Shown piece after piece: positions 8,624 through 61,640 of a stretch of DNA of 64,000 nt (positions are counted from its first letter, which is position 1; each line of letters begins with the position of its first letter). Source of the stretch: a virus. The stretch lies in the IMG/VR virus record IMGVR_UViG_3300050821_024094, positions 1 through 64,000 of that record. The stretch is one strand, 5' to 3'. The translations under genes were made by a program, and so were the position numbers. The notes beneath the pieces are model-generated. The model did no database searches, was not told the DNA's origin, and was given only the letters and a program-made list of their open reading frames with translations.

Positions 8624-9136
8624 TTAGAGGCCGATGCCGAGGAGCTGCCTTTGGTTGGCGGCCTGGTCGACGCCGTTCACGATGAACTTCTTGTTCAGCG
8701 CGTCGATCTCGAGCACGACGACATTGTCGATGGTGTGCTTCAGGTAGTCGCAACAGACCGTGTATTTCTCGGTCGTCTTGCTACCGGGCTGAACGGTCCC
8801 TCGGTCGACTGACCGGATGAAGCCGTGAGTTTCGAGTTGCACGCCCTTCTCATTGCCCTGGTAGTCCACCAGGACGCCGAAGAACTTGAAGATTTTCTGG
8901 TTGCCCTGGCCGAGGCCATAGAAACCAGTCAGGAGCGCCGAGTGCGCGGTCAGATCGAAGTCGAGCTCGATCTTTTCGTGGCCCAGCTTGACCTCGACGG
9001 GAACATCCATTGCCCCGCCGCGATACTCTTCCACCTTCCAGTTCAACTTTGGCAGCGTGACCTGCGAGACGTCGCCGGAAAACAGGTTGCCATCGATGAA
9101 CAGCGTGTAGTCGCGAAAGACGTCCTTAATGGGCAT
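8624..9136 (-). CDS. FII: major tail tube protein (FII)
   Basis: A 170-residue homologue of P2 FII, the inner tube subunit of the contractile tail. The start is the ATG at 9134-9136, because the GGAGGA Shine-Dalgarno sequence lies 5-6 nt before it and inside the alternative longer ORF. Typical features are LFIDGNLFSGDVSQVTLP near the start and FDLTAHSALLTGFYGLGQG in the middle. It follows the sheath gene across a strong hairpin at 9155-9184. Confidence 0.92.
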   Translation of the reverse strand: MPIKDVFRDYTLFIDGNLFSGDVSQVTLPKLNWKVEEYRGGAMDVPVEVKLGHEKIELDFDLTAHSALLTGFYGLGQGNQKIFKFFGVLVDYQGNEKGVQLETHGFIRSVDRGTVQPGSKTTEKYTVCCDYLKHTIDNVVVLEIDALNKKFIVNGVDQAANQRQLLGIGL

Positions 9137-9154
9137 CTTGTCCTCCAAAAGTTA

Positions 9155-9184
9155 GGGGCCGCTCTCCGTGCAGGAGGCGGCCCC
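9155..9184 (-). terminator. hairpin between sheath and tube genes
   Basis: Stem GGGGCCGC / GCGGCCCC with an inner CTCC/GGAG helix lies between the sheath stop and the tube Shine-Dalgarno sequence. The T-tract after it is short (TAACTTTT). It may be a partial terminator or an RNA-processing site that adjusts the sheath to tube ratio. Confidence 0.5.
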
Positions 9185-9225
9185 GATGCGTTTCTTGTCG
9201 GTGACGGTCTCTTGGATAGGACCGG

Positions 9226-11013
9226 TTACTGCGCGTTGAGCAGGAAGGCGTCGAGGACTTCCGTGTAGTAGCCCGCGTTGCGGTGCGCACGGAACGTCAG
9301 ACGCTCCAGCGGAGCCGGCGGCTCGATGTCGAAGTCGATCACGAGCTGACCGTTCTGGAGCTGCGTGACCGGATTGAGCGACTTATCCAGCCAGGCTTTG
9401 CCGTCGATGATGGCGCCCTGCGCTGCGAGCGTGCGCAGCGCAGCATTGACAGAGCCCTCGATCCAGTCGAGCAGGCCGAGATTGATCGGCTTGTCGACAG
9501 CCTCGCGCATCGCGTTCTCGATCGCGTCGTAGACCTGATCCGCGGTGCGGCGAACCGGCAGGAACTTCCAGACCGATTTCGAGGTGGGCGAGCGGGTGCC
9601 GAGCACGCGGAAACCGGCGTCGTGGACAACGACCGCGATCGCCTGCGAGTTGAGGAGCTGGCCTTCGACGGTCGAAGAGGTGAACGACCAGTCGATGATC
9701 CGGTTGACACCGACGACGCCGTTGAGCGGCTGGTTCGAGGCGGAGTACCAGAAGCCGAAGTTCTGGTCCATGTAGGCTTGCATGCCGGCGAGACGCGGAG
9801 CAGCGGGCTCTACGACCGCGACGTTGTTGATGGCGTCCCACACCTGCACGCCGCCTTCGACGATCCAGAGGCGATCGGTGTCGAAGTCGTTGCGCCAGGC
9901 GATCGCGTCGACATAAGAGGTGCCGGGCGAGTCCGCGATGATGATCGCGCGCATGTCTTCGGCAACGCCGATCAGCTCCGCGACCACCGGGTTGGCGACA
10001 TGGCCGAGAACCGCGGTGAGCACCGCGCCGGAACCACCCAGGCCGCCGATGAGCGTCGCACTGCCCCAAGTGGCCACAGCGCTGGACTTGGTCGTGGCAA
10101 TCGCATTCGCCGCAGCGTTAGAAGCCTTCGAGGTGACGACCAGCGCCGTGCCGGTGCCTGCGGATGCAGTCACCAGCGTGTGAGCGGCCGTGCCGGTGCC
10201 GTAAGCGGTGCCGGACCCGGTCCCAGCGTTGATGGCTGCGATCAGGTTGGAGACCGTGGTCGCTGCGTCGACGCCGAGCTTGACCTTGTTCGCCGCGTCG
10301 ATGGTCGCGGTGATCGTGTAGGTGCGAGAGCCGATCGTGACGGTGTCGCCTTCGGCCGCATTGGCGGTGAAGGTGAGCGTTCCGTTAGCGGGCGCGGCCG
10401 ACGAGTCGGTGACGGTGAGCGTCGGAGGAGCGCTAAACGCGAAGCCCTTCTTCTGCGGGACGACAGCAGTGATGCCGCCGTTCTGGACGACCGGGAGGTA
10501 GGTGTCGCCTTGCCCATCACCGGCAGAGGTGATGATCACGTTGGCGGCGGAGAGATAGCCCTGGCCGCCAGTGTTAACGTCAACGCTCGCGACACCATCG
10601 GCAGGACGCTGCGCGGTGTAGCCCGGCACGATGAGGATTTTCGGGATCAGGCTGAGCAGGGCCTTGGCCTTCTTCAGAGCGAAGAGGCCGGTGAGTGCGG
10701 TCTGCTGACCGATCAGGTTCGAGAGCTGGACGTTCGTGGTTTGCGATTCGGTCACGCGCACCAGGACCACATCCGCGCCGAACTGATCGAAGACGCCTTC
10801 GATCGCATCGGGCAACGTGCCCGTGGTTCCGAGCGCAAGCGCATCGCGCGCGTTGCCGGCAATCAGGATAGGTTCGTTGATCGGGAAGAGGTCGGGGTCC
10901 GCGTCCGGCGCGGTGCCGACCAGACCGATGACGTTGGACGGCCCGAGTTGGATCGGACGGATTGCGTCATCCACCTCGATCGTTTCAATGCCATGACGAT
11001 ATTCGGTGACCAT
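9226..11013 (-). CDS. FI: tail sheath protein (FI) with inserted domain
   Basis: A 595-residue contractile sheath protein. The N-terminus (YRHGIETIEVDDAIRPI) and C-terminal half (NRIIDWSFTSSTVEG around residue 430, DIEPPAPLERLTFRAHRN near the end) are typical of P2 FI-type sheaths. Residues about 140-335 form an insertion of alanine/threonine/glycine-rich beta sequence with EGDTVTIGSRTYTI, making the protein longer than the usual 390-500 residues. A related module occurs in the protein at 14342-16951. The insertion probably decorates the tail surface. Confidence 0.9.
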   Translation of the reverse strand: MVTEYRHGIETIEVDDAIRPIQLGPSNVIGLVGTAPDADPDLFPINEPILIAGNARDALALGTTGTLPDAIEGVFDQFGADVVLVRVTESQTTNVQLSNLIGQQTALTGLFALKKAKALLSLIPKILIVPGYTAQRPADGVASVDVNTGGQGYLSAANVIITSAGDGQGDTYLPVVQNGGITAVVPQKKGFAFSAPPTLTVTDSSAAPANGTLTFTANAAEGDTVTIGSRTYTITATIDAANKVKLGVDAATTVSNLIAAINAGTGSGTAYGTGTAAHTLVTASAGTGTALVVTSKASNAAANAIATTKSSAVATWGSATLIGGLGGSGAVLTAVLGHVANPVVAELIGVAEDMRAIIIADSPGTSYVDAIAWRNDFDTDRLWIVEGGVQVWDAINNVAVVEPAAPRLAGMQAYMDQNFGFWYSASNQPLNGVVGVNRIIDWSFTSSTVEGQLLNSQAIAVVVHDAGFRVLGTRSPTSKSVWKFLPVRRTADQVYDAIENAMREAVDKPINLGLLDWIEGSVNAALRTLAAQGAIIDGKAWLDKSLNPVTQLQNGQLVIDFDIEPPAPLERLTFRAHRNAGYYTEVLDAFLLNAQ

Positions 11014-37694: not shown

Positions 37695-39257
37695 TCAATG
37701 TGAGAAGGCGTATCGGCCCTGGAGCGGGCCACTGGCTGTGACGGTGAGCGCACGGAAAGCGCCGGACGCTGCGTCTACCTGGTCATCGTGAGCACCGTTC
37801 GGGAACGACGCGAGCTCGTCGAGGAAAGCCTCATTCCAGGGACCGCGCAGGAGCTTGACGTTGCCGGCCTCGGCTTGGGCGGCGAATGGATCGGCGCGGG
37901 TTCCCTTGTCGCCCGTCTCTGCCTCCGAGGTGACGACGTATCCCGCGAGATTGGAGGCGAGCTGGCGCACCTGGAACTTGCCGGCCTGGCCGGGGTCTTG
38001 CGGGATGCGGATTTTGGTGCCGTAGCCGTCCGAGGTCGCGATGTTCTTCATCGTCGATTCGATAACGCCCGGCGACCAGCGATCGCGTGCGACGTCACAG
38101 ATGTAGAAGATGCCCGTCACGGGATCGCGCCCCATGAGCAGTCCGACGGTGTAGTCCGGGTCCGACTTCACGTCGGTCGAGGACGCCAAGTCCCACGAGC
38201 GCACGCGATGGAACGCGACGGAGGCGGGAGCTGCCCCGACGATCTCGAACCAGGTCCGCTTGAAGGTGCCGCCCTCGCGAGCGGTCGGGCGTTGCTGGAG
38301 CTGACCGGCCGCAGCGTGCGAGCCGAGGCGGGTTGACCACTCCGCCAGAATGTCAGCGGTGAAGCGCTCCTTCCACAGCGGTTCGCCTGGGATGGTGCGA
38401 AGGTCGCACCAAACCTCCTTGATCGGCGACTTCTTCCGCACGACCTTGGTCTGGAACCCGATGGGATGGTCCCGCTCATAGCTCGCCGGCAGGCAAACAA
38501 TGTCCCAGCCCATCTCCTTCGCGAGAATGTGGCCCGTGAGATCGCGCTCGTGCGAGCGCTGCATGATGACGATGAAGACGCCGGTCTTCGGATTGTTGAG
38601 GCGGGTCGGAAGGACCTCGTCCCACACCCGCAGCGTCTCTTCGCGGATGACCTCGCTCTCGATCTCTTTGATGTTGTGGGCGTCGTCGATGACGATGATG
38701 TCAGCGCCGAAGCCGGTGACGCCACCGGAGAACGACAGCGCCATGCGCGAGCCGCCCTGCACCGTGTCGAAGTCGGTGATGCGGTTCGAGTTGGGGTCAA
38801 GCTGGACGCGCTCGCCCCACAGCTTCGCGTACCACTGGCTCTCGATGAGCTGGCGGCACTTCTGCGAGTGCGCGTTCGACAAGCGGCCCGAATAGGAGAT
38901 GTAGGCGAACTTCACCCCGGCGCCGTAATGGCGGAACACCTGCTTGCGATACGAAGGATCGCCCGATCGCCGCTTGAGGTCTTGCAGCCACGTCCAGGCC
39001 GGATAGAACACGTTGGCGCCGATCGACTTCATGTGCCGAGGCGGCAGATTGAGGATCAGTCGTTTGATCTGACCGTCCGCAACCGCTTCGAGGTGATCGC
39101 AGACGGCATCGATGTGCCAGTTGGATTGGAAGTCCGCAGGTTCGACGAACGGCCAGCCGAACTTGACGAAGGTGCCCAAGTCTTGTTCGCAAACCTCCCG
39201 CAGTGATGCCGCGATGTTATCGGGCAGGTTCGCGATGTCTTCGGGACGCATAGGCAT
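37695..39257 (-). CDS. terL: terminase large subunit
   Basis: A 520-residue packaging ATPase/nuclease. The ATPase domain has Walker A PPRHMKS (73-78 region) and Walker B DIIVIDDAHN (186-195), with a C-motif-like FIVIMQRSHERD near 228-239. The C-terminal RNase H-like nuclease starts at RVRSWDLASSTD (351-362), with D356 as a probable metal ligand. It powers DNA translocation through the portal and cuts the concatemer. Length is typical. It follows the small subunit, after a gap of 59 bp. Confidence 0.93.
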   Translation of the reverse strand: MPMRPEDIANLPDNIAASLREVCEQDLGTFVKFGWPFVEPADFQSNWHIDAVCDHLEAVADGQIKRLILNLPPRHMKSIGANVFYPAWTWLQDLKRRSGDPSYRKQVFRHYGAGVKFAYISYSGRLSNAHSQKCRQLIESQWYAKLWGERVQLDPNSNRITDFDTVQGGSRMALSFSGGVTGFGADIIVIDDAHNIKEIESEVIREETLRVWDEVLPTRLNNPKTGVFIVIMQRSHERDLTGHILAKEMGWDIVCLPASYERDHPIGFQTKVVRKKSPIKEVWCDLRTIPGEPLWKERFTADILAEWSTRLGSHAAAGQLQQRPTAREGGTFKRTWFEIVGAAPASVAFHRVRSWDLASSTDVKSDPDYTVGLLMGRDPVTGIFYICDVARDRWSPGVIESTMKNIATSDGYGTKIRIPQDPGQAGKFQVRQLASNLAGYVVTSEAETGDKGTRADPFAAQAEAGNVKLLRGPWNEAFLDELASFPNGAHDDQVDAASGAFRALTVTASGPLQGRYAFSH

Positions 39258-39316: not shown

Positions 39317-39862
39317 TTACTCGGTCTTCGCGTCGATCACCGGACCGAGCGAGCCGAGCAGTTCCGTCGTCTTCTCCATGCCGAGCCTCACCACGGTGTC
39401 GAGAAACTCGACCTGCTTGTCCAAAGGCATGGCGGCGAGGTTCAAGGTCGCGAGCGGATGCGGCACCGCCTGCACCTTGACCGGACCGTCATTGGGCCCG
39501 GTGATCTGGTGCGACTCGATGTAGCCGCGATCGCGCGCCTGGCAGCGCAGGAAGAAGCGGATGGACTCCCGATCCCCCTTCTTGACCGCCTCGAGCAGCT
39601 TGCCCTCGCCGAGGTCGATCAGCTCCTCCTTGATGTCGAGCATCGCCTCCTTCAGCTTTGGGGATTCCTCGATCCATCGATACAGACTCGAGCGCGCGCA
39701 ACGCAGGCGTTTGGCGGCGACGGTCTTAAGACCTGCCGACGCGCGCAGCGCTTCGAGGATCAGTTGGTCGGAGGGACGGTCATACAGGGACGGACCTGGC
39801 GCGATCACGTCATAGGCAGGTTGAGCCTTCTTGGTGCGAGGCTTCTTGGTCTTACTGGTCAT
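39317..39862 (-). CDS. terS: terminase small subunit-like HTH protein
   Basis: A 181-residue protein read from the ATG at 39860-39862. A lysine-rich start is followed by an HTH (SAGLKTVAAKRLRCARSSLY, then RWIEESPKLKEAML) that recalls DNA-binding domains of small terminase subunits. A helical region (about 95-115) could mediate ring formation. Its position just upstream of terL supports the assignment, which otherwise rests on the HTH. Confidence 0.7.
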   Translation of the reverse strand: MTSKTKKPRTKKAQPAYDVIAPGPSLYDRPSDQLILEALRASAGLKTVAAKRLRCARSSLYRWIEESPKLKEAMLDIKEELIDLGEGKLLEAVKKGDRESIRFFLRCQARDRGYIESHQITGPNDGPVKVQAVPHPLATLNLAAMPLDKQVEFLDTVVRLGMEKTTELLGSLGPVIDAKTE

Positions 39863-39877
39863 TGCGTATCTCAAACG

Positions 39878-39906
39878 AAAAAGGCGCGGCCCGCGAGGAC
39901 CACGCC
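39878..39906 (-). terminator. intrinsic terminator after the ParB/methyltransferase operon
   Basis: A 10-bp stem with two G-T wobbles (GGCGTGGTCC / GGGCCGCGCC) and TCGC loop, followed on the minus strand by TTTTTCG. It separates the modification-like operon from terS. Confidence 0.75.
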
Positions 39907-39933: not shown

Positions 39934-40380
39934 TTAGGCGGCTTCGCAGAACATCTGCGCGCCGAACTGGAAGTTCCGGCAGGTGAGGTAGTTGCGCGAT
40001 CGGTCGCCGAACTTGGCATCCGACACGCTCTTGTCGATCGGGATCGCTTCGAGCCCTCGGATCACGAGCATGTCCTTCGTCCACAGATCGAGCGACGCCA
40101 TCGCTCCGCGCTTCACCCGCCCCGCCAGATGGGCATTGTTCGCCCAGTTATAGGGTTGGGCGACGCCACAGAAGTAGAGGATGTTCCCCTCGGGATAGGC
40201 GAGTTCGACATCGCGATTGATCGGTGACTTGAGGCCGAAGTTCTTGTCGAACTTTCCGACCAGGCAGCGAGCGCAGTGTACGTTTTCGTTGAACCCCTCG
40301 ACCGTCTTGAGCCAGAGATAGCGCCAGCCCCGCAAATGAAGGGCGTGCGAGCGAATGTGGTAGGAAACCCCGTCAGCCAT
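39934..40380 (-). CDS. unknown protein coupled to ParB-methyltransferase
   Basis: A 148-residue protein with no family that I recognise. It contains CARCLVGKFDKNFG (36-49), a NILYFCGVAQPYNWANNAHL segment (about 66-85) and a cysteine in a YLTCRNFQFG segment, an alpha/beta pattern with several cysteines and aromatic residues that could be an enzyme core. Its start overlaps the stop of the ParB-methyltransferase gene by 8 nt, so the two are translationally coupled, and a terminator follows. A joint role in DNA or nucleotide modification is inferred from the operon. Confidence 0.6.
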   Translation of the reverse strand: MADGVSYHIRSHALHLRGWRYLWLKTVEGFNENVHCARCLVGKFDKNFGLKSPINRDVELAYPEGNILYFCGVAQPYNWANNAHLAGRVKRGAMASLDLWTKDMLVIRGLEAIPIDKSVSDAKFGDRSRNYLTCRNFQFGAQMFCEAA

Positions 40381-41755
40381 AGATTGCCCTTACTGCCGCC
40401 TTGACGTCTTCCCCCCGGCCTAGTCGGCGGTCGTCACTGACCGGAAGATCGAACTCGTAGTCGCAGGCGGCGAGCATGTCATCGAGCGGAAGGTCTCGCT
40501 CCTTGACCGCTTCAATCTGCCATGACGTGCCCGTGTGCGAATGCACCAGCGCGCGAAACCCGAAGCGCGGAGCAATCGCCGCCGCCTCGGGCTTGGTGTG
40601 GAACTTCTGATAGAACCAGCGCCCGTCACGGTAGAGCGCGGTGAAGCCGTCCTTGTCCGGGAACTCGACGTAGCGCCGGCTGTTCTGAATTTTCGTGGTG
40701 TTGTTCATGTGCTCGATCGCTTCGACCGGGCGACCTGAAAAGAACACGCGACCACCCTTGGCAGCGAGCATGTTCAACACAGTCATCACGGCGGTTTCAG
40801 CTTGTCGGCAATCGACCGAGTTCAGGACGCTGTCGCAGACAACATGATCGTATGGACCGTTATCGTATAGCGAGCGCGTCATCGCAGTGACCATAGTATT
40901 GACTTCCCGCATGTCAATACTTTGAGACGCGCCGACCCTACGAAAAAGCTCGATGTCGAAAAAATCAAGTCCTCGTTTGCGCATCGCATTCGCGTAGTCT
41001 CCCTGGCCGGAGCCGAAGTCGATAAAGCGAGCGGTCTTATTCTTCATCGCGAACGGGATGACATGCTGCTCGTAGAGGGTCGACTTGCCGCCTCGCGTTT
41101 GCCCGCGCAGCCGCTTCATCTGCGCGAGCGTCTGAATGAAGGTGTCCTTCTTCAAGTGCGTGTAGGAGAAGACGCCATACTGGCGATCGAGGAAGGCGCG
41201 GTACTTGCCCTCGTCCGCGTCCGCGATGACGAAGGTCGTGAGCTTCGTGCGCGTGAGACCGGCCGCGAGCGCGTACTGAGCGGCGTGAATGACCCGACCT
41301 GACTTCGTCGCAACGACACCGCCCCAAGGTCCATACTTCACGATCAGATCGGCGATCGCGGTGCGCACGTTCGCGAGTTTGGAGCGGTAGTTCCCCGTGA
41401 TCCGCGAAGGCTCGACGATTGTGAAGCCGAGTGCGTCGAATCCGCCTGTGATCCTCACCATCTCATCGCCACCGTCCATGTCGGTGCCGTTGTGGAGTTG
41501 GTTGAAGCGGACCTCGTCGTAGGTGGTGGTGTCGCGCGGGAGCACGTAGACCGGTGCGGTCGTGTAGCCGAGGCTGCGCAGCGCCTTCGTGCGTTGATGG
41601 CCCGCGACCAGGAGTGTGCCGCGCACGATCAGCGGTTTGACAAGGCCGAGGTCGCGGATGCTCTCCGCGAGCTTGGTCAGATCATCCTCGTTGATGTGGC
41701 GCGGATTGTACTCGGCACCCCGGAGGCGGGTGATGTCGTAATTCAGGTCAAGCAT
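40373..41755 (-). CDS. ParB-like domain fused to SAM methyltransferase
   Basis: A 460-residue two-domain protein. Residues 1-75 are a ParB/Srx-like domain (YNPRHINEDDLTKLAESIRD, LLVAGHQRTKAL at 48-59). From about 225 a class I methyltransferase fold begins, with the SAM motif DFGSGQGDY (246-254) and VVCDSVLNSVD (305-315). The region between (100-220) is a separate helical domain. The ParB part may confer nucleotide hydrolysis or CTP/DNA binding; the target of methylation is unknown, with DNA, RNA and nucleotide all possible. It overlaps both neighbours by 8 nt. Confidence 0.75.
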   Translation of the reverse strand: MLDLNYDITRLRGAEYNPRHINEDDLTKLAESIRDLGLVKPLIVRGTLLVAGHQRTKALRSLGYTTAPVYVLPRDTTTYDEVRFNQLHNGTDMDGGDEMVRITGGFDALGFTIVEPSRITGNYRSKLANVRTAIADLIVKYGPWGGVVATKSGRVIHAAQYALAAGLTRTKLTTFVIADADEGKYRAFLDRQYGVFSYTHLKKDTFIQTLAQMKRLRGQTRGGKSTLYEQHVIPFAMKNKTARFIDFGSGQGDYANAMRKRGLDFFDIELFRRVGASQSIDMREVNTMVTAMTRSLYDNGPYDHVVCDSVLNSVDCRQAETAVMTVLNMLAAKGGRVFFSGRPVEAIEHMNNTTKIQNSRRYVEFPDKDGFTALYRDGRWFYQKFHTKPEAAAIAPRFGFRALVHSHTGTSWQIEAVKERDLPLDDMLAACDYEFDLPVSDDRRLGRGEDVKAAVRAIYG

Positions 41756-42392
41756 TCTTGCGCCCTTCGATCAGATACGAAGCAAAGCCGTAGTCCGCGC
41801 CCATCTCCTCGACGTACTTGTCTTTGAGCGCGGTCAGCGCCACGACCTCCTCGTCCGTCATCGAGACCTTGACGTCGCCGAAGCGAAGGAAGTTGCGCGA
41901 GGAACCGCGGGACTCATCGCCATCGACGCCGAAGTTCACGAGGTCGTCGGGGTCCAGAAGCTTCGAGAGCTCGGAGCTTGAGAAGCCGAGAAGGCTGGTG
42001 TCGAAGTTGAGCTCGGCGAGGCCAGCGACCTCGACCTTGAGCATGTCCATGTCCCAGCCCGCGTTCTCCGGGAGCTTGTTGTCCGCGATGACGTAGGCGC
42101 GGCGCTGCGCCTCGCTCCAGCCATGCGCGACGATGCACGGGACCTTGTCGATGCCGAGCTGTTGGGCCGCCATGATCCGACCGTGACCGGCGATGATGCC
42201 GTTGTCGGGATCAATGAGCACCGGAATGGTCCAGCCGAACTCCCGGATCGAAGCCGCGATCTGCCCGACCTGCGCCGGCGAATGCGTGCGCGAGTTGCGC
42301 GCATAGGGGATCAAATCCGCCGTCGCGCGGGTGACGATCTCGGATGCCGGCCACCTCTTGGTGTCATCCGCCTTGCGTGCCTGTTTGGTCAT
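41748..42392 (-). CDS. ParB/Srx-like domain protein (orphan methylase-type N-domain)
   Basis: A 214-residue protein. Residues 25-110 match the ParB-like domain usually fused to phage adenine methylases: IPYARNSRTHSPAQVGQIAA, then IIAGHGRIMAAQQLG and AYVIADNKLPENAGW. Here the methylase part is absent; the C-terminal 75 residues are a different acidic/helical segment. It is the first gene of the leftward operon and overlaps the ParB-methyltransferase by 8 nt, so the missing catalytic part may be supplied in trans. Confidence 0.75.
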   Translation of the reverse strand: MTKQARKADDTKRWPASEIVTRATADLIPYARNSRTHSPAQVGQIAASIREFGWTIPVLIDPDNGIIAGHGRIMAAQQLGIDKVPCIVAHGWSEAQRRAYVIADNKLPENAGWDMDMLKVEVAGLAELNFDTSLLGFSSSELSKLLDPDDLVNFGVDGDESRGSSRNFLRFGDVKVSMTDEEVVALTALKDKYVEEMGADYGFASYLIEGRKNA

Positions 42393-42439
42393 CTGCCAAA
42401 GTTATCCTCGGTTGTCGCTTAAAAAATCTCACTCGATTG

Positions 42440-42476
42440 TTGCATCCGGTCGGGACCGTGGTACTTATATGGACCA
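42440..42476 (+). promoter_or_regulatory. promoter with 18-bp palindromic operator (copy 1)
   Basis: A -35-like TTGCAT (42440-42445) precedes the palindrome TGGTAC-TTATAT-GGACCA (42459-42476), which covers the expected -10 position. The ParB/KorB-like gene starts 33 bp downstream. Confidence 0.6.
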
Positions 42477-42484
42477 ACGAAAAC

Positions 42485-42493
42485 ACCTACCAC
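42485..42493 (+). promoter_or_regulatory. start-associated motif (ACCTACCAC)
   Basis: Variant copy of the leader motif, 15 nt before the ATG at 42509, with CACGGAGAC between. Confidence 0.55.
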
Positions 42494-42508
42494 ACGGAGA
42501 CGACGACG

Positions 42509-43450
42509 ATGACCACGGCCACCGAAACCAAGACGACTGTTGCCCGCAAGACGAAGTTCATTGCCCTCGCGAACGTCATCGCGAACCCGAACCAGCCGCG
42601 CAAAGATTTCGACGACGCGCATATCCGGGAGCTGGCGAGCTCCATCGCCAAGCACGGACTGATCCAGCCAATATCGGTGCGCCCGATCGAGAAGGCCGTC
42701 GGCAAGACGACGACCTACATGATCATCGCCGGCGAATGCCGCTACCGCGCCCACAAGCTGCTGGCCGAGGAAGGCAAGCTCGATGCTCCGGTCGTCGAGG
42801 CCATCGTTTCAACCGACGTTGACGACACTCAGATGCAGGTGCTCGCCATCATCGAGAACGCCAAGCGCAAGGACGTCAATCCGATGGAGGAGGCCGACGC
42901 CTTCCAATTCCTCCTCGACACCGGCATGACGATCGCCCAGGTCCAGCGCGAGCTGGGCTTCGGCTCCCGAGGCCGGGTGACCGATCGCCTCAACCTGCTC
43001 AAGCTGGAGGACAACGCCAAGACACTGGTGCGCTCCGGTCAGCTCTCCGCCTGCTTCGCCGCAGAGATCGCCACCCTCCCCGCTCACATGCACACGCGGA
43101 TGATCCGCAAGGTGTCGACGGGCGAGTTCAAGAGCATCGATCAGATACGCGCCGCCTGCTCGGCCATCCGCGAGGCGAACGAGCAAGGCAGCATGCTCGG
43201 TGGAGCGCCGGCAGCGACCGACGGCGAGATGCGCACGCTCCGCAGCATGGAAGCGCGGATCGACGATGTGCTCAAAATGGTCAACGCAGGTTTCAAGGAC
43301 GGCGAATGCCAGATCGCCAAGAAGGCTGATCCAAACCGCACGACTGCAATGGCCGACAAGCTGGCTGCCGTGCGATCCGCCATCACGGTGATGGAGTTCC
43401 AGCTCCGCAAGGCATCGGCAGTCGCCGACCTGCTCGAAACCGCCGCCTGA
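42509..43450 (+). CDS. ParB/KorB-like partition or regulatory protein
   Basis: A 313-residue ParB/RepB/Spo0J-family protein. The N-terminal ParB domain has NPNQPRKDFDDAHIRELASS (27-46), the GECRYRA-type CTP-binding motif at about 75-81 and the ENAKRKDVNPMEEADAF segment. An HTH (MTIAQVQRELGFGSRGRVTD) follows near 143-162. The C-terminal helices probably dimerise. Family members bind palindromic parS or operator sites. No ParA gene is near, so a KorB-like regulator is as likely as a partition protein. The palindromes at 42459, 47952 and 50312 are natural candidate targets. Confidence 0.85.
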   Translation: MTTATETKTTVARKTKFIALANVIANPNQPRKDFDDAHIRELASSIAKHGLIQPISVRPIEKAVGKTTTYMIIAGECRYRAHKLLAEEGKLDAPVVEAIVSTDVDDTQMQVLAIIENAKRKDVNPMEEADAFQFLLDTGMTIAQVQRELGFGSRGRVTDRLNLLKLEDNAKTLVRSGQLSACFAAEIATLPAHMHTRMIRKVSTGEFKSIDQIRAACSAIREANEQGSMLGGAPAATDGEMRTLRSMEARIDDVLKMVNAGFKDGECQIAKKADPNRTTAMADKLAAVRSAITVMEFQLRKASAVADLLETAA

Positions 43451-44271: not shown

Positions 44272-44886
44272 ATGATCAAGTCGCGCCTCGTACGCCCTGC
44301 GGGCTTCATCGAACCTTGCATTCCGGTCCTTGCTGACAAGCCGCCGACCGGTGAGCAATGGGTGCATGAAATCAAATACGACGGCTACCGCCTACAGGTG
44401 CATCGCAACGGCGAGCGCGTGCGCATCTTCACACGGCGCGGATTTGACTGGACGGATCGTTTTCCCGTCATCGCGTCGACGGCGCTGACGCTCAAGGCGA
44501 AAGCCTTCATCCTGGACGGTGAGGGTGTGGTCACAGACGCTGCAGGTGTGACGCAATTCGATCAGCTTCACGGCCATCGGCGCTACACGAGCGCGTTTTT
44601 GCAGGCGTTCGATCTTCTGTCGATCGAGGGCGATGATTTGCGCCGTCTTCCGCTGTTCGATCGCAAGGTGCTGCTGGACGGGCTGCTTATGGGTTCATAT
44701 TCGGGCATCGTCAACGATGGGCACGTGAAGGCACTCGGCGCGGTCGTGCTGGCCAAAGCGTGCCAACTCGGTCTGGAAGGCATCGTGTCGAAAAAGATCG
44801 ACGCGCCGTATCGCAGCGGCAAAAGCGGCGATTGGATCAAGGTTCGCAATCCCGAGGGACATGCAGCGAAACGGTTTGAGCGGTGA
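44272..44886 (+). CDS. ATP-dependent DNA ligase, adenylation domain only
   Basis: A 204-residue LigD-type nucleotidyltransferase domain. It holds the motif I active lysine in EIKYDGYR, the RRGFDWTDRFP motif, DGEGVV with FDQLHG, FDLLSIEGDDLRRLPL, the GLEGIVSKK motif IV and WIKVRN motif V. No OB-fold domain follows, so it is much shorter than a full ligase. Stand-alone domains of this kind are frequent in Bradyrhizobium and relatives. In the phage it may help nick sealing or be passive cargo. A C-terminal remnant of a second copy follows at 45069. Confidence 0.8.
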   Translation: MIKSRLVRPAGFIEPCIPVLADKPPTGEQWVHEIKYDGYRLQVHRNGERVRIFTRRGFDWTDRFPVIASTALTLKAKAFILDGEGVVTDAAGVTQFDQLHGHRRYTSAFLQAFDLLSIEGDDLRRLPLFDRKVLLDGLLMGSYSGIVNDGHVKALGAVVLAKACQLGLEGIVSKKIDAPYRSGKSGDWIKVRNPEGHAAKRFER

Positions 44887-45068
44887 AATAACAGGCCGCG
44901 CGTGTCCGGCTGTCCAGGCGGTCACGCACGGCCTGCTTATTTCTGCGATCAAAACGCGGTACATAGCCCCGATCGCAAAGCTGTAACCGCGCCGATACAA
45001 TCCGGTTCCGGTGATATCAGATATTGTCCACAAGCTTGTGTCGGCCATCGGAGACGGTGCGGGACGCG

Positions 45069-45140
45069 CTCGGGCGATTGGATCAAGGTTCGAACTCCGG
45101 ACAGCCCAGCGGCCAAACGCTTCCAGCGCGGCAATGAGGG
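45069..45140 (+). pseudogene. remnant of a second DNA ligase 3' end
   Basis: About 70 bp encode GDWIKVRTPDSPAAKRFQR, a second version of the C-terminal end of the ligase at 44886 (SGDWIKVRNPEG...). No start or upstream ligase motifs accompany it, so it is a decayed duplicate or recombination scar. Confidence 0.65.
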
Positions 45141-45147
45141 CATCCAC

Positions 45148-45513
45148 CTAGACGTTGATGGAAATCTGGCCACCGGGCGGACTATTCGCCGGTTCGACGA
45201 CGCGATCAGCGCGGGCAAGTCGGCGTAGCATGATGCGCTCGCCTCCGAACCCGGCCGCGAACGTGTTCGCATGCGCCGGCTCCGCGAAACAGAACAGTGT
45301 AAAGTCACCGATGTCACGATGGTCGCTTTTGGTGTGATAGGGCATCGCCTGCTTCCCGCAGAAAGCGTGCATGCTCATCAGGCGCTGGCCGAGGCCGCCG
45401 AGCGGAATCGCTATGGCGACTTGGAAAGGATAGTCGCGGTCGATCCGATGTTTTGTGGTCCTGCGTCGGGACGTGCCGTGAAGGCTCTCTAATCTCGGTC
45501 GCAATCCGGGCAT
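45148..45513 (-). CDS. hypothetical protein (cargo)
   Basis: A 121-residue protein read from the ATG at 45511-45513 with GAGGA upstream. The C-terminal half, including MHAFCGKQAMPYHTKSD and then FTLFCFAEPAHANTFAAGFG, resembles small proteins widespread in Bradyrhizobium with a YCF-x-P-x-A-x-x-F-x-x-x-F-G-G ending. The N-terminal 45 residues are basic. Function unknown. It opposes the ligase. Confidence 0.6.
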   Translation of the reverse strand: MPGLRPRLESLHGTSRRRTTKHRIDRDYPFQVAIAIPLGGLGQRLMSMHAFCGKQAMPYHTKSDHRDIGDFTLFCFAEPAHANTFAAGFGGERIMLRRLARADRVVEPANSPPGGQISINV

Positions 45514-47064: not shown

Positions 47065-47775
47065 TCAATCCGCCTCTAAAATATCCCCCAGGGCAATCTT
47101 ATCGATCAAAGTCGCGTCGTCATCGCTCGTGCGTGAACTATTCACACGTTTTGACACCGGCCACTTCTGCAACACGTCTTCGCCGGCCGGCTTCATCAGC
47201 GCGACGGCGTCGTTCGCGTCACCGTGTTCCCATTGCTCAAAGTCTTTGGCTTCGAGGATCACGGGCATGCGATCGTGGACTTCCGCAACGAACTTGTTCG
47301 GCACGGTGATGACCATCGTCGTCGACAACAGGTCGCTGCCGGCGTCCTTGTCTTTCCACTTCGACCACAAACCCGCGAACGTGATCGGATGCCCATCGCG
47401 CCGGGTGAAGTACCAAGGCTGCGGCTGCTTTACTCCGGTGGTGTGTTGCCATTCGTAATAGCCACTTGCCAGCATCAGGCAGCGACGATGCTTGAAGGAG
47501 TCTTTGAACATCGGCTTCGTCGCAACCGTTTCTGCGCGCGCGTTGAACGTCGCCATCTTCATTTCTTTGAGCGTCTTGTCCCACCAATACGGGATCAGCC
47601 CCCAGCGCATTGGGACAAGAGAGCGCTTGCCGTCAGTTGAGATCACGACGTCAACGGGCGTCGTCGGACAAATGTTGTAACGGGGCTGCGTATTGCGCGC
47701 CGGTGCGTCGAGGGTCAGCCGATACAGCCGGACAATCTCTTCCCAGGTCAGCTTGTAGGTGTACCGCCCACACAT
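47065..47775 (-). CDS. SRAP (HMCES/YedK-like) abasic-site peptidase
   Basis: A 236-residue SOS-response-associated peptidase. Cys2 after the initiator methionine (MCGRYT), NARAET near 77-82, GYYEW near 104-108 and HDRMPVIL near 166-173 are the conserved active-site motifs. HMCES proteins crosslink to abasic sites in single-stranded DNA and protect replication forks. In this phage it may shield replicating DNA, or be host cargo. It diverges from the early operon at 48038. Confidence 0.9.
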   Translation of the reverse strand: MCGRYTYKLTWEEIVRLYRLTLDAPARNTQPRYNICPTTPVDVVISTDGKRSLVPMRWGLIPYWWDKTLKEMKMATFNARAETVATKPMFKDSFKHRRCLMLASGYYEWQHTTGVKQPQPWYFTRRDGHPITFAGLWSKWKDKDAGSDLLSTTMVITVPNKFVAEVHDRMPVILEAKDFEQWEHGDANDAVALMKPAGEDVLQKWPVSKRVNSSRTSDDDATLIDKIALGDILEAD

Positions 47776-51349: not shown

Positions 51350-52894
51350 ATGCTCGATGTCACCACCGGCGCGCTCGCGCGCTGCAGCGAAGACGTCACT
51401 CAAGACCGGCCGACCGACACCGGTATTGTCCCGCGCGACACGGTCGAGACCATCGTGCGCAACCGCGACCGCGCATTGGAGCTCTACTGCCTCGCCCACC
51501 AGGCCCTGAACACCGCGAACGAAGCTGTCGCCGGAGCGGCAGGAGCAACACGTGACCTCTGCCCAGGAGAGAACCGTTACAACCACCATCTCAGCAGCGA
51601 GAAGGCCCATTGGCTCAAGCCAGGCCGAGTGCCGTCGCGCGAAGACTACATGGCGACCGCGCGCAAGATCACGGACACAGATGTCTGGTCGCACCTGATC
51701 GCGATCACCGACCTTGAGAAGCTCATGGATCGCAAGGCGAAGGACGAGTTCTCGCGGCAGCTTCAAGACGATCCGCCTGAGGTGACGGTCGACAACGTGT
51801 TCGCGACACTTGAGCACTTCATGGCGGACGCCGGCACCATCTTCCGGCGCGGCATCGCCAATTGCTTCTCCAGCCTCGATCGCCGGTTCAAGTCACACGA
51901 CGGTTTCAAGATCGGGAGCCGCGTGATCCTCACCCACATGTTCGATGGGTTTGGCCACATGAACTATCACCGCAACACCGAGGCGACGCTCATCGACATC
52001 GACCGCACGTTCCGCCTGCTCGACGGAAAGAAGGACTGCGACGTCTACACCGGCATCGTCGGCGCGCTGCGCAACGACCGCACGGGTTGGGGCGCTCGGC
52101 AGACCGAGACGCACTCTGACTACTTCAAGGTCGTCGGCTACATGAACGGCAACGCGCACATTTGGTTCAAGCGCGACGACCTGCTCGAGAAGGTCAACAA
52201 GATGCTCGCCGAATACTACGGCGAAACAATCGGCGACGGAAACGACCGCGACGATGGCGGACTGTTCACACCCAAGACGACGCTAGCGAAGCACTACGGC
52301 TTCTACCCGACGCCGGATGAAGCATCGAAGACGATCATCGACATGGCCGGGCTCTATCGAGAGAAGGGCATGCCTGCGCTCCGCATCCTCGAACCGTCCG
52401 CCGGCACCGGCAACCTCGCGCGGCGTTGCGTGCGAGGATACGGCGAAGGGCACGAGAGCGTGTCGTATCACGCTCGCGAGCGCATCGCATCCGAGCCCAA
52501 CCTGGTCGACTGTGTCGAGGTGCAGGCCAATCTCGCCAGCGACCTCAAGGCCGAGGGCATTTATCGGAAGGTCTACGCCCAGGACTTCCTCACGCTGCAA
52601 CCCGTCGGCCTCTACGACCGCGTGGTGATGAACCCGCCGTTCGATCGGGAGCGCGACATTGATCACGTCATGCACGCGCTCAACTTCCTCGCCGACGACG
52701 GCGTGTTGATCGCGATTATGTCGGCAGGCACCGAGTTCCGCGAGACGCGCAAGGCAACCGCCTTCCGCGCGTTGATGAAAAAAATGAACGCCCACTGGCG
52801 CGATCTGCCGGCCGGATCGTTCTCCTCCGTCGGCACGAACTGCAACACGATCGTGCTGAAGGTCAGCAAGAACGGCCGGCACTTCTATCACTGA
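51350..52894 (+). CDS. DUF4942-type adenine methyltransferase
   Basis: A 514-residue two-part protein. The N-terminal 280 residues, including VDNVFATLEHFMADAGTIF (147-165) and KIGSRVILTHMFDGFG, match the DUF4942-type domain. The C-terminal part is a class I methyltransferase with LEPSAGTGNL (348-357) and catalytic NPPF (428-431). Such proteins are phage N6-adenine methyltransferases thought to protect DNA from host restriction. No partner endonuclease is visible. Confidence 0.85.
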   Translation: MLDVTTGALARCSEDVTQDRPTDTGIVPRDTVETIVRNRDRALELYCLAHQALNTANEAVAGAAGATRDLCPGENRYNHHLSSEKAHWLKPGRVPSREDYMATARKITDTDVWSHLIAITDLEKLMDRKAKDEFSRQLQDDPPEVTVDNVFATLEHFMADAGTIFRRGIANCFSSLDRRFKSHDGFKIGSRVILTHMFDGFGHMNYHRNTEATLIDIDRTFRLLDGKKDCDVYTGIVGALRNDRTGWGARQTETHSDYFKVVGYMNGNAHIWFKRDDLLEKVNKMLAEYYGETIGDGNDRDDGGLFTPKTTLAKHYGFYPTPDEASKTIIDMAGLYREKGMPALRILEPSAGTGNLARRCVRGYGEGHESVSYHARERIASEPNLVDCVEVQANLASDLKAEGIYRKVYAQDFLTLQPVGLYDRVVMNPPFDRERDIDHVMHALNFLADDGVLIAIMSAGTEFRETRKATAFRALMKKMNAHWRDLPAGSFSSVGTNCNTIVLKVSKNGRHFYH

Positions 52895-58920: not shown

Positions 58921-59213
58921 GCCGCCCTCCGTTCACGCATTGGGAAGAAGCCGCGCATGCGCAGGTGGCTGGCGACGAACCAACGGGCGAGCGGAGCCGT
59001 CCAATGGTCGTTGCACTTGAACTCGCGATCACCCCTCTCGACCCGACGGTGCCATCGGATGCGATGAAGAATGGCGTCGGACGAGTAGTGCTTGAAACCC
59101 GATGAGCGGACCTCGAAGGCGAAACGCTCGAACAGACTGCACACGTCTTCGGGGATGCCCTCCGGCATCTGGACCGGCTCCAAGCTGGCGCAGAGATCCA
59201 CGAGGTCCATCAT
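58917..59213 (-). CDS. conserved hypothetical phage protein
   Basis: A 98-residue protein starting MMDLVDLCASLEPVQM at the ATG at 59211-59213, with ATGA overlaps on both sides. The C-terminal 60 residues (KHYSSDAILHRIRWHRRVER, CNDHWTAPLARWFVASHLRM, RGFFPMRER) are a conserved phage block whose function is not known; the basic aromatic composition suggests nucleic-acid binding. Confidence 0.65.
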   Translation of the reverse strand: MMDLVDLCASLEPVQMPEGIPEDVCSLFERFAFEVRSSGFKHYSSDAILHRIRWHRRVERGDREFKCNDHWTAPLARWFVASHLRMRGFFPMRERRAA

Positions 59214-59836
59214 GCTGCCTCCGCTGGCGTGTGGTCCTCCCAGGAGACGCGGCGGACCTCGTAGTGGTCGCAGCGGTGCTCGCGGTCCCAGACGAACCAG
59301 GCGAACGCCATACCGCTGTTTGCCTTCCGCCCTTCCCAGCCGGCGCGGTGCATCATCGGGAGCCGCTTGCGGAACACCCAAACGCGGGCGAGGTGACCGC
59401 CATCGAGTGCGAAGCGGCGAGCTTGGCCTGCCTCTGAGCGGCTGTTGCCACCCTCCAGGAACGCGAGGCGCAAGAGGAAGTAGACCCGCGGCACCATCCC
59501 GATCGCCTTCTCAGCAAAGCGCGCTGCGAGCTTGAACGGCGGATTGGTGATGATCGCCTCGGCGCCCATCCACGCCCTTCGCTCCAACAGGAAATCACAG
59601 CCGGCTTCCGATTCCGGGCAGCCGTAGTCGCGGAGATCGCTGGCATAGACGGTGTGTCCAGCGTCGCGTAGCACGCGCACGATGGCGCCAGGCCCACAGG
59701 CGGGCTCCCAGATTTTCCGTGGCAGGCGCTCGACACCCATGAGCGCGTGGACGGCGACGGCCGGCGTCTCATAGAGATCGTCGCCGCGAGCGGCGAGCTT
59801 GTCTCGTTTATTGCCGAGTGAGGAATCCAATGGCAC
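59210..59836 (-). CDS. phage N6-adenine methyltransferase-like protein
   Basis: A 208-residue class I methyltransferase with the SAM motif WEPACGPGAI (43-52), YASDLRDYG (acidic loop) and the catalytic NPPF (98-101). It resembles phage Dam-like or SAM-dependent DNA adenine methylases. It sits next to the GcrA homologue, whose host counterpart works with adenine methylation at GANTC sites. Target sequence is unknown. Confidence 0.8.
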   Translation of the reverse strand: MPLDSSLGNKRDKLAARGDDLYETPAVAVHALMGVERLPRKIWEPACGPGAIVRVLRDAGHTVYASDLRDYGCPESEAGCDFLLERRAWMGAEAIITNPPFKLAARFAEKAIGMVPRVYFLLRLAFLEGGNSRSEAGQARRFALDGGHLARVWVFRKRLPMMHRAGWEGRKANSGMAFAWFVWDREHRCDHYEVRRVSWEDHTPAEAA

Positions 59837-59842
59837 GAGCGC

Positions 59843-60346
59843 TCACCTCGCCTTCGGATGGCGATACGCGATGCGGGCATGGAACGTGCAGTAGGGCTTG
59901 CACTCGCCCTCACCCGCCGCATTGCCGCAGAAAGCGAAGCCGTCCTCGAGCGGATCTCCGAGCGGGAAATGACATTTGATCGAGGAGAGCTCGATGATGG
60001 AGCAGTTAAGCTCGGGCATCGGCGATGCGACATCGACTGCATCGTAGAAAGCCGGCCGCACACGCCGCTCATAGGCACGCGCAGTGGAGCGACGCACACG
60101 TGCCTCTCTCGGTTTGCGCGAGACAACGAGCAGGAGACGGTGCGCCTTGCCGATGCAGGCGTTCCGCGTCAGTACGCCACCGTGCTCCTCGTTGATCCGC
60201 TCGGCGATCAGCGAGAAAGAGATGCCCTCGGAAATGAGCGCCTTAAGCATTTCGGTCCGCTCGGCGGTCCAGGTCGTATTGTTGCGACCGGCGGGCTTGT
60301 GGACCGGGGTGGCGTACTGCGGCGCGACCATGACGTGCATGTTCAT
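59843..60346 (-). CDS. gcrA: GcrA cell-cycle regulator homologue
   Basis: A 167-residue GcrA-like protein. It starts at the ATG at 60344-60346, overlapping the resolvase stop (ATGA). The N-terminal HTH (TTWTAERTEMLKALISEGIS, LTRNACIGKAHRLLL) and the C-terminal SIKCHFPLGDPLEDGFAFCG and PYCTFHARIAYR segments match GcrA, which associates with sigma70 at methylated GANTC promoters in alphaproteobacteria. A phage copy could redirect host transcription or promote phage promoters. Confidence 0.88.
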   Translation of the reverse strand: MNMHVMVAPQYATPVHKPAGRNNTTWTAERTEMLKALISEGISFSLIAERINEEHGGVLTRNACIGKAHRLLLVVSRKPREARVRRSTARAYERRVRPAFYDAVDVASPMPELNCSIIELSSIKCHFPLGDPLEDGFAFCGNAAGEGECKPYCTFHARIAYRHPKAR

Positions 60347-61055: not shown

Positions 61056-61640
61056 TTAGAGCCTCCGGTGCGCGTGCTCCCCCATCGGGGGCGGCGGCTT
61101 GAAGGGCATGTCGATGTCGTGAAGGATCAGATCGACGCTGGCGTAGAGATCCTTGAGCGAGCCATCGTTGTGAATGACGTAGTCGCCCTGGATGTCGTGC
61201 CGCTCGCTTTCGTGATTGGCGTGAGCCGTGGTGGTACCGTCCCTCACGATCTGGATGATCTTGCCGGCGCGCTGGCGGACCGCCTCTGCTTCGTTGGGGA
61301 AGCGGACGTCGTCGGCAACGATCCAGTACCGAAAGAACGAGTCGACGCGGGCATTCCAGATGTTGGTCCAGATGTCCCCGCCGATTTGATCACGGCCCCA
61401 CTCGGTCCCGATCGTGATCATCGCGAAGCGCGGGCTCTTGCCGCAAAGCAGCTTGCACGACTGATCCTTGAGCGAGCCTTCGATCTGGTCCTCCGTGAGC
61501 CCGATGGCGCGCAGCATGTCCTTGAGCGGGTCAGCGAACTTCACGACCTTGAAGCCGTGCATGCGCGTGAGATAGCGGGCGACCTCTGACTTTCCGCAGC
61601 CGGCGCGACCGTGCAGGCCGATGATGGCGGGATCACGCAT
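61056..61640 (-). CDS. deoxynucleoside monophosphate kinase
   Basis: A 194-residue P-loop kinase read from the ATG at 61638-61640 with GGAG upstream. The P-loop is GLHGRAGCGKSEVARYL near the start, followed by KFADPLKDMLRAIGL and IVADDVRFPNEAEAV, a set typical of phage dNMP kinases (T4 gp1 type). It raises dNTP supply for phage replication. An upstream ATG at 61658 is less likely because it overlaps the DnaA-like gene by more. Confidence 0.85.
   Translation of the reverse strand: MRDPAIIGLHGRAGCGKSEVARYLTRMHGFKVVKFADPLKDMLRAIGLTEDQIEGSLKDQSCKLLCGKSPRFAMITIGTEWGRDQIGGDIWTNIWNARVDSFFRYWIVADDVRFPNEAEAVRQRAGKIIQIVRDGTTTAHANHESERHDIQGDYVIHNDGSLKDLYASVDLILHDIDMPFKPPPPMGEHAHRRL

Follow-up and report, generated by a model that had tools for sequence, protein, structure and literature searches.

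Proteins with ParB folds have been described as DNA-bound switches, and the arginine of their P-motif is required for nucleoside triphosphate (NTP) binding in the members tested (PMC12704722). Fusions of ParB to methyltransferases of the Methyltransf_23 family show enrichment in phages; one relative of these, joining ParB to an S-adenosylmethionine (SAM) methyltransferase, bound ATP (PMC12704722). ParB-Tls loci are reported to hold phage DNA-modification genes, and one proposal is that ParB guides the enzyme while packaging takes place (PMC6536676, citing Iyer et al. 2013). ParB-domain proteins also occur in carboxymethylcytosine loci (PMC12783734), and a ParB-adenine methylase has been reported to nick (cited in PMC5512222). 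New base chemistry and anti-restriction mechanisms abound in phage loci for DNA modification. Here, a cassette of three genes is analysed: a ParB-like gene (B), a ParB-methyltransferase fusion (M) and a gene for an undescribed, widespread third component (C). It lies in a stretch of 64,000 nucleotides, termed the window, which is part of the 74,777-base virus record IMGVR_UViG_3300050821_024094 of IMG/VR.

A recurrent three-gene cassette

B (41748-42392), M (40373-41755) and C (39934-40380) are minus-strand open reading frames that form one operon with B first. Adjacent genes overlap by 8 nt, at 41748-41755 between B and M and at 40373-40380 between M and C, as described in an original prediction made from the sequence of the window. 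B encodes a 214-residue protein of ParB/Srx fold with a GHGR P-motif and a conserved C-terminal tail. M has 460 residues: an NTP-binding ParB domain at 1-93 is followed by a middle region (~100-200), and the remainder (~200-460) is a class I SAM methyltransferase with its C-terminal extension. C is an undescribed protein of 148 residues. The terminator that had been assigned to the operon downstream of C is real: minus-strand RNA from 39925 to 39865 adopts a stem of 15 bp with a U-run behind it (-31.2 kcal/mol, z = -4.9), an energy that none of 200 shuffles equals. This intrinsic terminator-like hairpin (39878-39906, minus strand) lies between C and the small terminase gene; it was overlooked by a simple scan and found by RNA folding against shuffles.

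The original prediction combined these three genes and a divergent ParB gene into a multi-component modification system, against which a lack of co-occurrence in other phages would count. Co-occurrence was found, and B, M and C stand as a multi-component system. Their location fits a DNA-modification locus; the divergent ParB is judged not to belong to the set. A two-sequence alignment of C, searched over 2.9 million viral contigs, found 86 relatives (80 kept), where a single-sequence query over viral contigs (P0003) had given no match. M as query retrieved 109 relatives from viral contigs, 80 of them kept, and 63 from bacterial genomes. Both searches rest on short motifs, and relatives that lack them are missed; absences are weak evidence because viral contigs are fragments. 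Among 64 distinct C sequences fetched independently of M, 56 adjoin M and three more lie within 3.2 kb of it. Two of the others have M elsewhere in the phage, two lie at contig ends, and the sole real exception (L068) is on a 10-kb fragment. Seen from M, C is adjacent to 44 of 66 distinct viral and 51 of 59 distinct genomic copies, and B accompanies 122 of 125, the three exceptions all being within 1.6 kb of a contig end. The C-to-M linkage is near-obligatory.

The arrangement itself is conserved. Of 111 same-strand pairs, 110 have M upstream of C, the joints typically show stop-start overlaps of 1-20 nt, and at nine further loci C is inverted yet still touches M. Distances of M and of C are correlated (r 0.55; none of 2000 permutations reaches the raw r), also when B is taken into account (partial r 0.45). 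Phages and prophages from no fewer than five bacterial phyla carry the cassette, with prophage hosts in Streptomyces, Bacteroidales, Alphaproteobacteria, Bacillota and Acidobacteriota. One locus fetched with M (L002) carries the same three genes with a C 33% identical. Because the grouping recurs in dozens of unrelated phages, it is not due to chance.

B-M pairs without C were seen in 71 of 5426 complete Escherichia coli genomes. Almost all of these pairs are on plasmid records, the ones listed being ~47-48 kb long; a 47.5-kb phage-plasmid of the p142_C type is an example. In one such record (L235, NZ_CP048340.1, B-M at 9001-10997), phage genes are present, a frameshifted MT-A70 methylase lies upstream and a second ParB precedes the terminase. 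At another B-M locus (L124, 7317-8812), an additional small ParB and a carboxy-SAM synthase like CmoA (TIGR00740, E = 7e-45, below the cut-off) stand directly before the terminase genes, and a DNA methyltransferase with an SPPY motif is also present.

Location beside the terminase genes

Downstream of the cassette on the minus strand, and outside it, lie a small terminase subunit-like gene (39317-39862; phrog_4044, E = 4e-4) and the large terminase subunit gene (37695-39257; phrog_38, E = 2e-85), the latter defining a ParB-Tls location. Both features of such loci are found here: a ParB-like gene beside a modification gene, and a large terminase gene downstream. Among 58 loci, at least 45 have the large terminase gene downstream at a distance of no more than 5 kb, terminase counts being lower bounds. 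Together with the known phage ParB-Methyltransf_23 fusions, the carboxymethylcytosine loci and L124, this location favours packaging-linked DNA modification. With even chances of being right, B-M-C is read here as a ParB-Tls-type phage DNA-modification cassette that stands beside DNA packaging and acts with it, DNA being the substrate we infer.

The position directly upstream of the terminase in most loci could also reflect control of packaging itself. B and M would sit on the pac/cos region or mark it and thereby regulate cleavage by the terminase, modification would be local and not genome-wide, and C would serve as a specificity or loading factor. The description of ParB folds as DNA-bound switches (PMC12704722) and the idea of ParB-directed packaging in ParB-Tls loci (PMC6536676) agree with such a role. 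However, the operon's own terminator separates the cassette from the small terminase gene here, the cassette is sometimes distant from the terminase, as in a Brochothrix phage, where it is far away, and position alone is common to many unrelated gene pairs. Packaging control is considered improbable.

The ParB and methyltransferase domains of B and M

The first ParB had been assigned to the type usually fused to methylases, and the profile matches agree. B has matches to ParB-like families, to the N-terminal region of ParB-DNA-methyltransferases from phages (phrog_498, E = 1e-49) and to the PADLOC model MTase_II (E = 2e-39); the PADLOC scan found no system match beyond this ParB-methyltransferase N-domain. 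M is a full-length match to phrog_5475 (E = 1e-150), a family of unknown function. The fusion of a ParB to a SAM methyltransferase that was predicted at 40373-41755 is recovered as ParB_N plus Methyltransf_23. The N-terminus scores 35.2 bits against ParB_N (PF02195), above the cut-off, and the transferase part scores 26.1 bits against Methyltransf_23 (PF13489, E = 8e-6), 0.9 bit below the cut-off of 27. A profile built from 65 relatives of M matches solved structures of ParB (E = 1e-13) and of UbiG-type methyltransferases (E = 2e-8). In the AlphaFold model of M (predicted local distance difference test, pLDDT, 94.8), residues 1-93 superpose on CTP-bound ParB 7bnr (Z 13.7, root-mean-square deviation 1.4 over 90 residues). 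Class I methyltransferases including METTL6, Trm9 and CmoM match residues ~200-421 of the model (Z 12-14). In its ParB fold, its class I SAM methyltransferase and its invariant arginine, M agrees with the ParB-CTPase-Methyltransf_23 fusions.

This arginine, Arg55 of the P-motif (Box II), is invariant in 151 of 151 M sequences and in all 56 that were not fetched by that motif. YNPR, GHQR and N85/H88/N89 are likewise invariant, including in the 56 M fetched via C. The GERR of the ParB P-motif is GHQR in M, so that the arginine is kept and the neighbouring glutamate is replaced by histidine; NTP binding with altered or lost hydrolysis is therefore expected. Residues 128-190 of M show ParB-like secondary structure with an invariant Y161 and a YGVF motif. 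A second, possibly degenerate ParB domain was considered for this segment and rejected, since the profile comparison was not significant (probability 4%).

The catalytic domain of M is of the UbiG/CmoM/METTL6 kind and is not a DPPY- or PC-type DNA methylase. The [DNS]PP[YFW] motif of DNA amino-methylases is absent from M, which carries D308-S-V-L-N312 at the end of beta-4, and so is the SPPC motif of CmoX. A relationship to the Dnd-associated methyltransferase TIGR04096 was entertained (E = 1e-10), but UbiG scores better (E = 4e-15) and CmoM equally well, and the likeness therefore reflects the shared class I fold only.

This kinship with UbiG, METTL6, CmoM and Trm9, and the lack of a DPPY or PC motif, could also be taken to mean that M acts on transfer RNA (tRNA), a nucleotide or other metabolite, or a protein, with its ParB domain serving as an NTP sensor only, for instance against host defences that use nucleotides or tRNA. 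The constant partner B and the terminase location are, however, both typical of DNA-modification loci, and ParB folds mostly act on DNA; a non-DNA substrate is considered unlikely. Less likely by far is a compact system for superinfection exclusion or restriction, in which ParB domains would nick unmarked DNA and M, with or without C, would protect the phage's own. The ParB-adenine methylase with reported nicking (PMC5512222) is a precedent for this idea, but no nuclease fold was found in B, M or C, and the PADLOC match is limited to the N-domain noted above.

The third protein

C had been singled out as a protein without known family that could be the novel enzyme of the system. No family for it was found in Pfam, NCBIfam or PHROGs, even when 70 members were scanned, and four queries found no C in 50,697 isolated phage genomes. 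Ten residues (W23, H35, C36, Y69, C71, N82, H84, C134, R135 and N136) are identical in 127 of 127 sequences, a pattern reminiscent of enzymes. They are also identical in all 62 sequences fetched via M rather than via C motifs, so that their invariance is not an artefact of retrieval. Five of the invariant positions in this cytosolic protein are cysteines or histidines (H35, C36, C71, H84 and C134), which hints at a metal or cysteine site.

The predicted model of C (pLDDT 96.3, predicted template modelling score 0.90) consists mostly of beta strands with C-terminal helices. No known fold could be assigned to it: the best Foldseek match in the Protein Data Bank has E = 3e-3 at TM 0.34 and nothing stands out, and a VIA structure comparison gave Z below 5 for YEATS and C2 sandwiches, none outstanding. 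Its structural matches in BFVD are two uncharacterised phage proteins. C is a plausible candidate for the novel enzyme. Two tandem copies of C were seen in one phage (L018, 7974-9549; L064, 6939-8441). On a Synechococcus plasmid, C is convergent with an M-like methyltransferase remnant, and this case may itself be a remnant.

Proposed mechanism

Two steps can be envisaged for a packaging-linked modification cassette. B and the ParB domain of M would bind an NTP (ATP or CTP being the probable ligand) and, acting as a dimer or clamp, would keep M on duplex DNA close to the packaging site. M would transfer a methyl or SAM-derived group to a base or base decoration. C, a partner that depends on M and has a probable site of its own, may perform or enable a second step: it might build or extend the acceptor group, or direct M. 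The resulting mark, probably placed on the DNA ahead of packaging, would protect the DNA from restriction or flag it for packaging. A more specific proposal, which is doubtful at present, is that C founds a new metal- or cysteine-dependent, mainly beta enzyme family and, with a ParB-gated UbiG-like transferase, makes an undescribed DNA base modification.

Several observations weigh against packaging-linked DNA modification. The transferase of M is nearest to small-molecule and tRNA enzymes, and DNA as its substrate is our inference. Structure comparisons revealed no recognisable catalytic fold in C. No modification-pathway gene co-occurs generally with the cassette. Finally, C is absent from 18 of 67 M clusters, about a quarter. 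A whole-record search of 21 M-only records, which had no positive control, found no C, and no common gene family replaces it at M-only loci, where a terminase or structural gene is usually next. The existence of such loci means that M dispenses with C in some lineages.

The divergent ParB and other genes of the window

The ParB gene predicted to start at 42509 and to diverge from the operon is present (42509-43450, plus strand) and encodes a ParB/KorB/Noc-like protein with both PF02195 (73.5 bits) and HTH_ParB (PF17762, 42.3 bits) domains. A close homologue lies near the cassette at only two other loci, and the protein was for this reason rejected as a component of the system; many Streptomyces loci have weaker ParB-HTH homologues 4-5 kb upstream of the cassette. 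Compared with ParABS partition systems, it has the HTH_ParB domain, whereas no ParA partner was found: PF13614 has no match in the 74.8-kb record, which may be incomplete (14 of 14 controls were positive). It is probably a ParB/Noc/KorB-type regulator or partition-type protein of this phage, outside the cassette.

Two further NPPF-type phage DNA methyltransferases are encoded at 51350-52894 (a DUF4942 fusion) and 59210-59836 (phrog_799), so that with M this phage has at least three methyltransferase-type genes. A deoxynucleotide monophosphate kinase (61056-61640; PF21448, 50 bits) is not common to other cassette phages. As candidate co-occurring genes, this kinase (one of 24 cassette phages), the DUF4942 methyltransferase (six of 24, a part of the set), Dam (none over the cut-off) and a CmoA-like gene (one of 36 records) were all rejected; CmoA (TIGR00740) has no match in this phage's record, nor in 34 of 35 other records checked. 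Hypermodification of the nucleotide pool, which had been offered as one form of the system, is disfavoured because neither the nucleotide kinase nor CmoA co-occurs generally.

The window also encodes a protein of the SRAP/HMCES family (47065-47775; 223 bits), a family that shields abasic sites. At 44272-45228, the C-terminal SGDWIKVR motif of an ATP-dependent DNA ligase fragment (204 residues) occurs once more behind the fragment, and this ligase gene is apparently broken or partly duplicated. GcrA is an alphaproteobacterial regulator that reads DNA methylation. The N-terminal segment of the product of 59843-60346 is GcrA-like by eye and suggests an alphaproteobacterial host.

Comparison with known systems

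The cassette is widespread and unnamed, its type of transferase is unusual on DNA, and neither the family libraries nor the isolated-phage collection that were searched contain its partner C. As C is tied to M almost obligatorily, the two make a clear testable pair, and the related B-M pairs on E. coli phage-plasmids open the substrate question to a laboratory host.

As in ParB-Tls loci (PMC6536676), in which the ParB may be fused to a methyltransferase, modification genes lie between a ParB-like gene and the large terminase. The present cassette differs in having a methyltransferase of Methyltransf_23/UbiG type and, in addition, a dedicated third protein. M shares with the ParB-CTPase-fold fusions the same pairing of domains, the enrichment in phages and the P-motif arginine (PMC12704722); the excerpted survey does not mention a neighbouring B or C. 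B resembles the N-terminal ParB domain of the ParB-N6/N4 DNA methyltransferase fusions of phrog_498, but it is a standalone protein, and M lacks their [DNS]PP[YFW] motif. The CmoX/CmoA carboxymethylcytosine loci (PMC12783734) likewise place a ParB-domain protein beside a SAM-type base-modifying enzyme, and L124 has a CmoA-like gene; in contrast, M is not CmoX, and CmoA is missing from this record and nearly all others checked. With UbiG, CmoM and METTL6, M shares the fold and the SAM-binding motifs of residues ~200-421, although it stands in another substrate context and is fused to ParB. The ParB-Tls locus and the ParB-Methyltransf_23 fusion were already known; what is new is the partner protein C.

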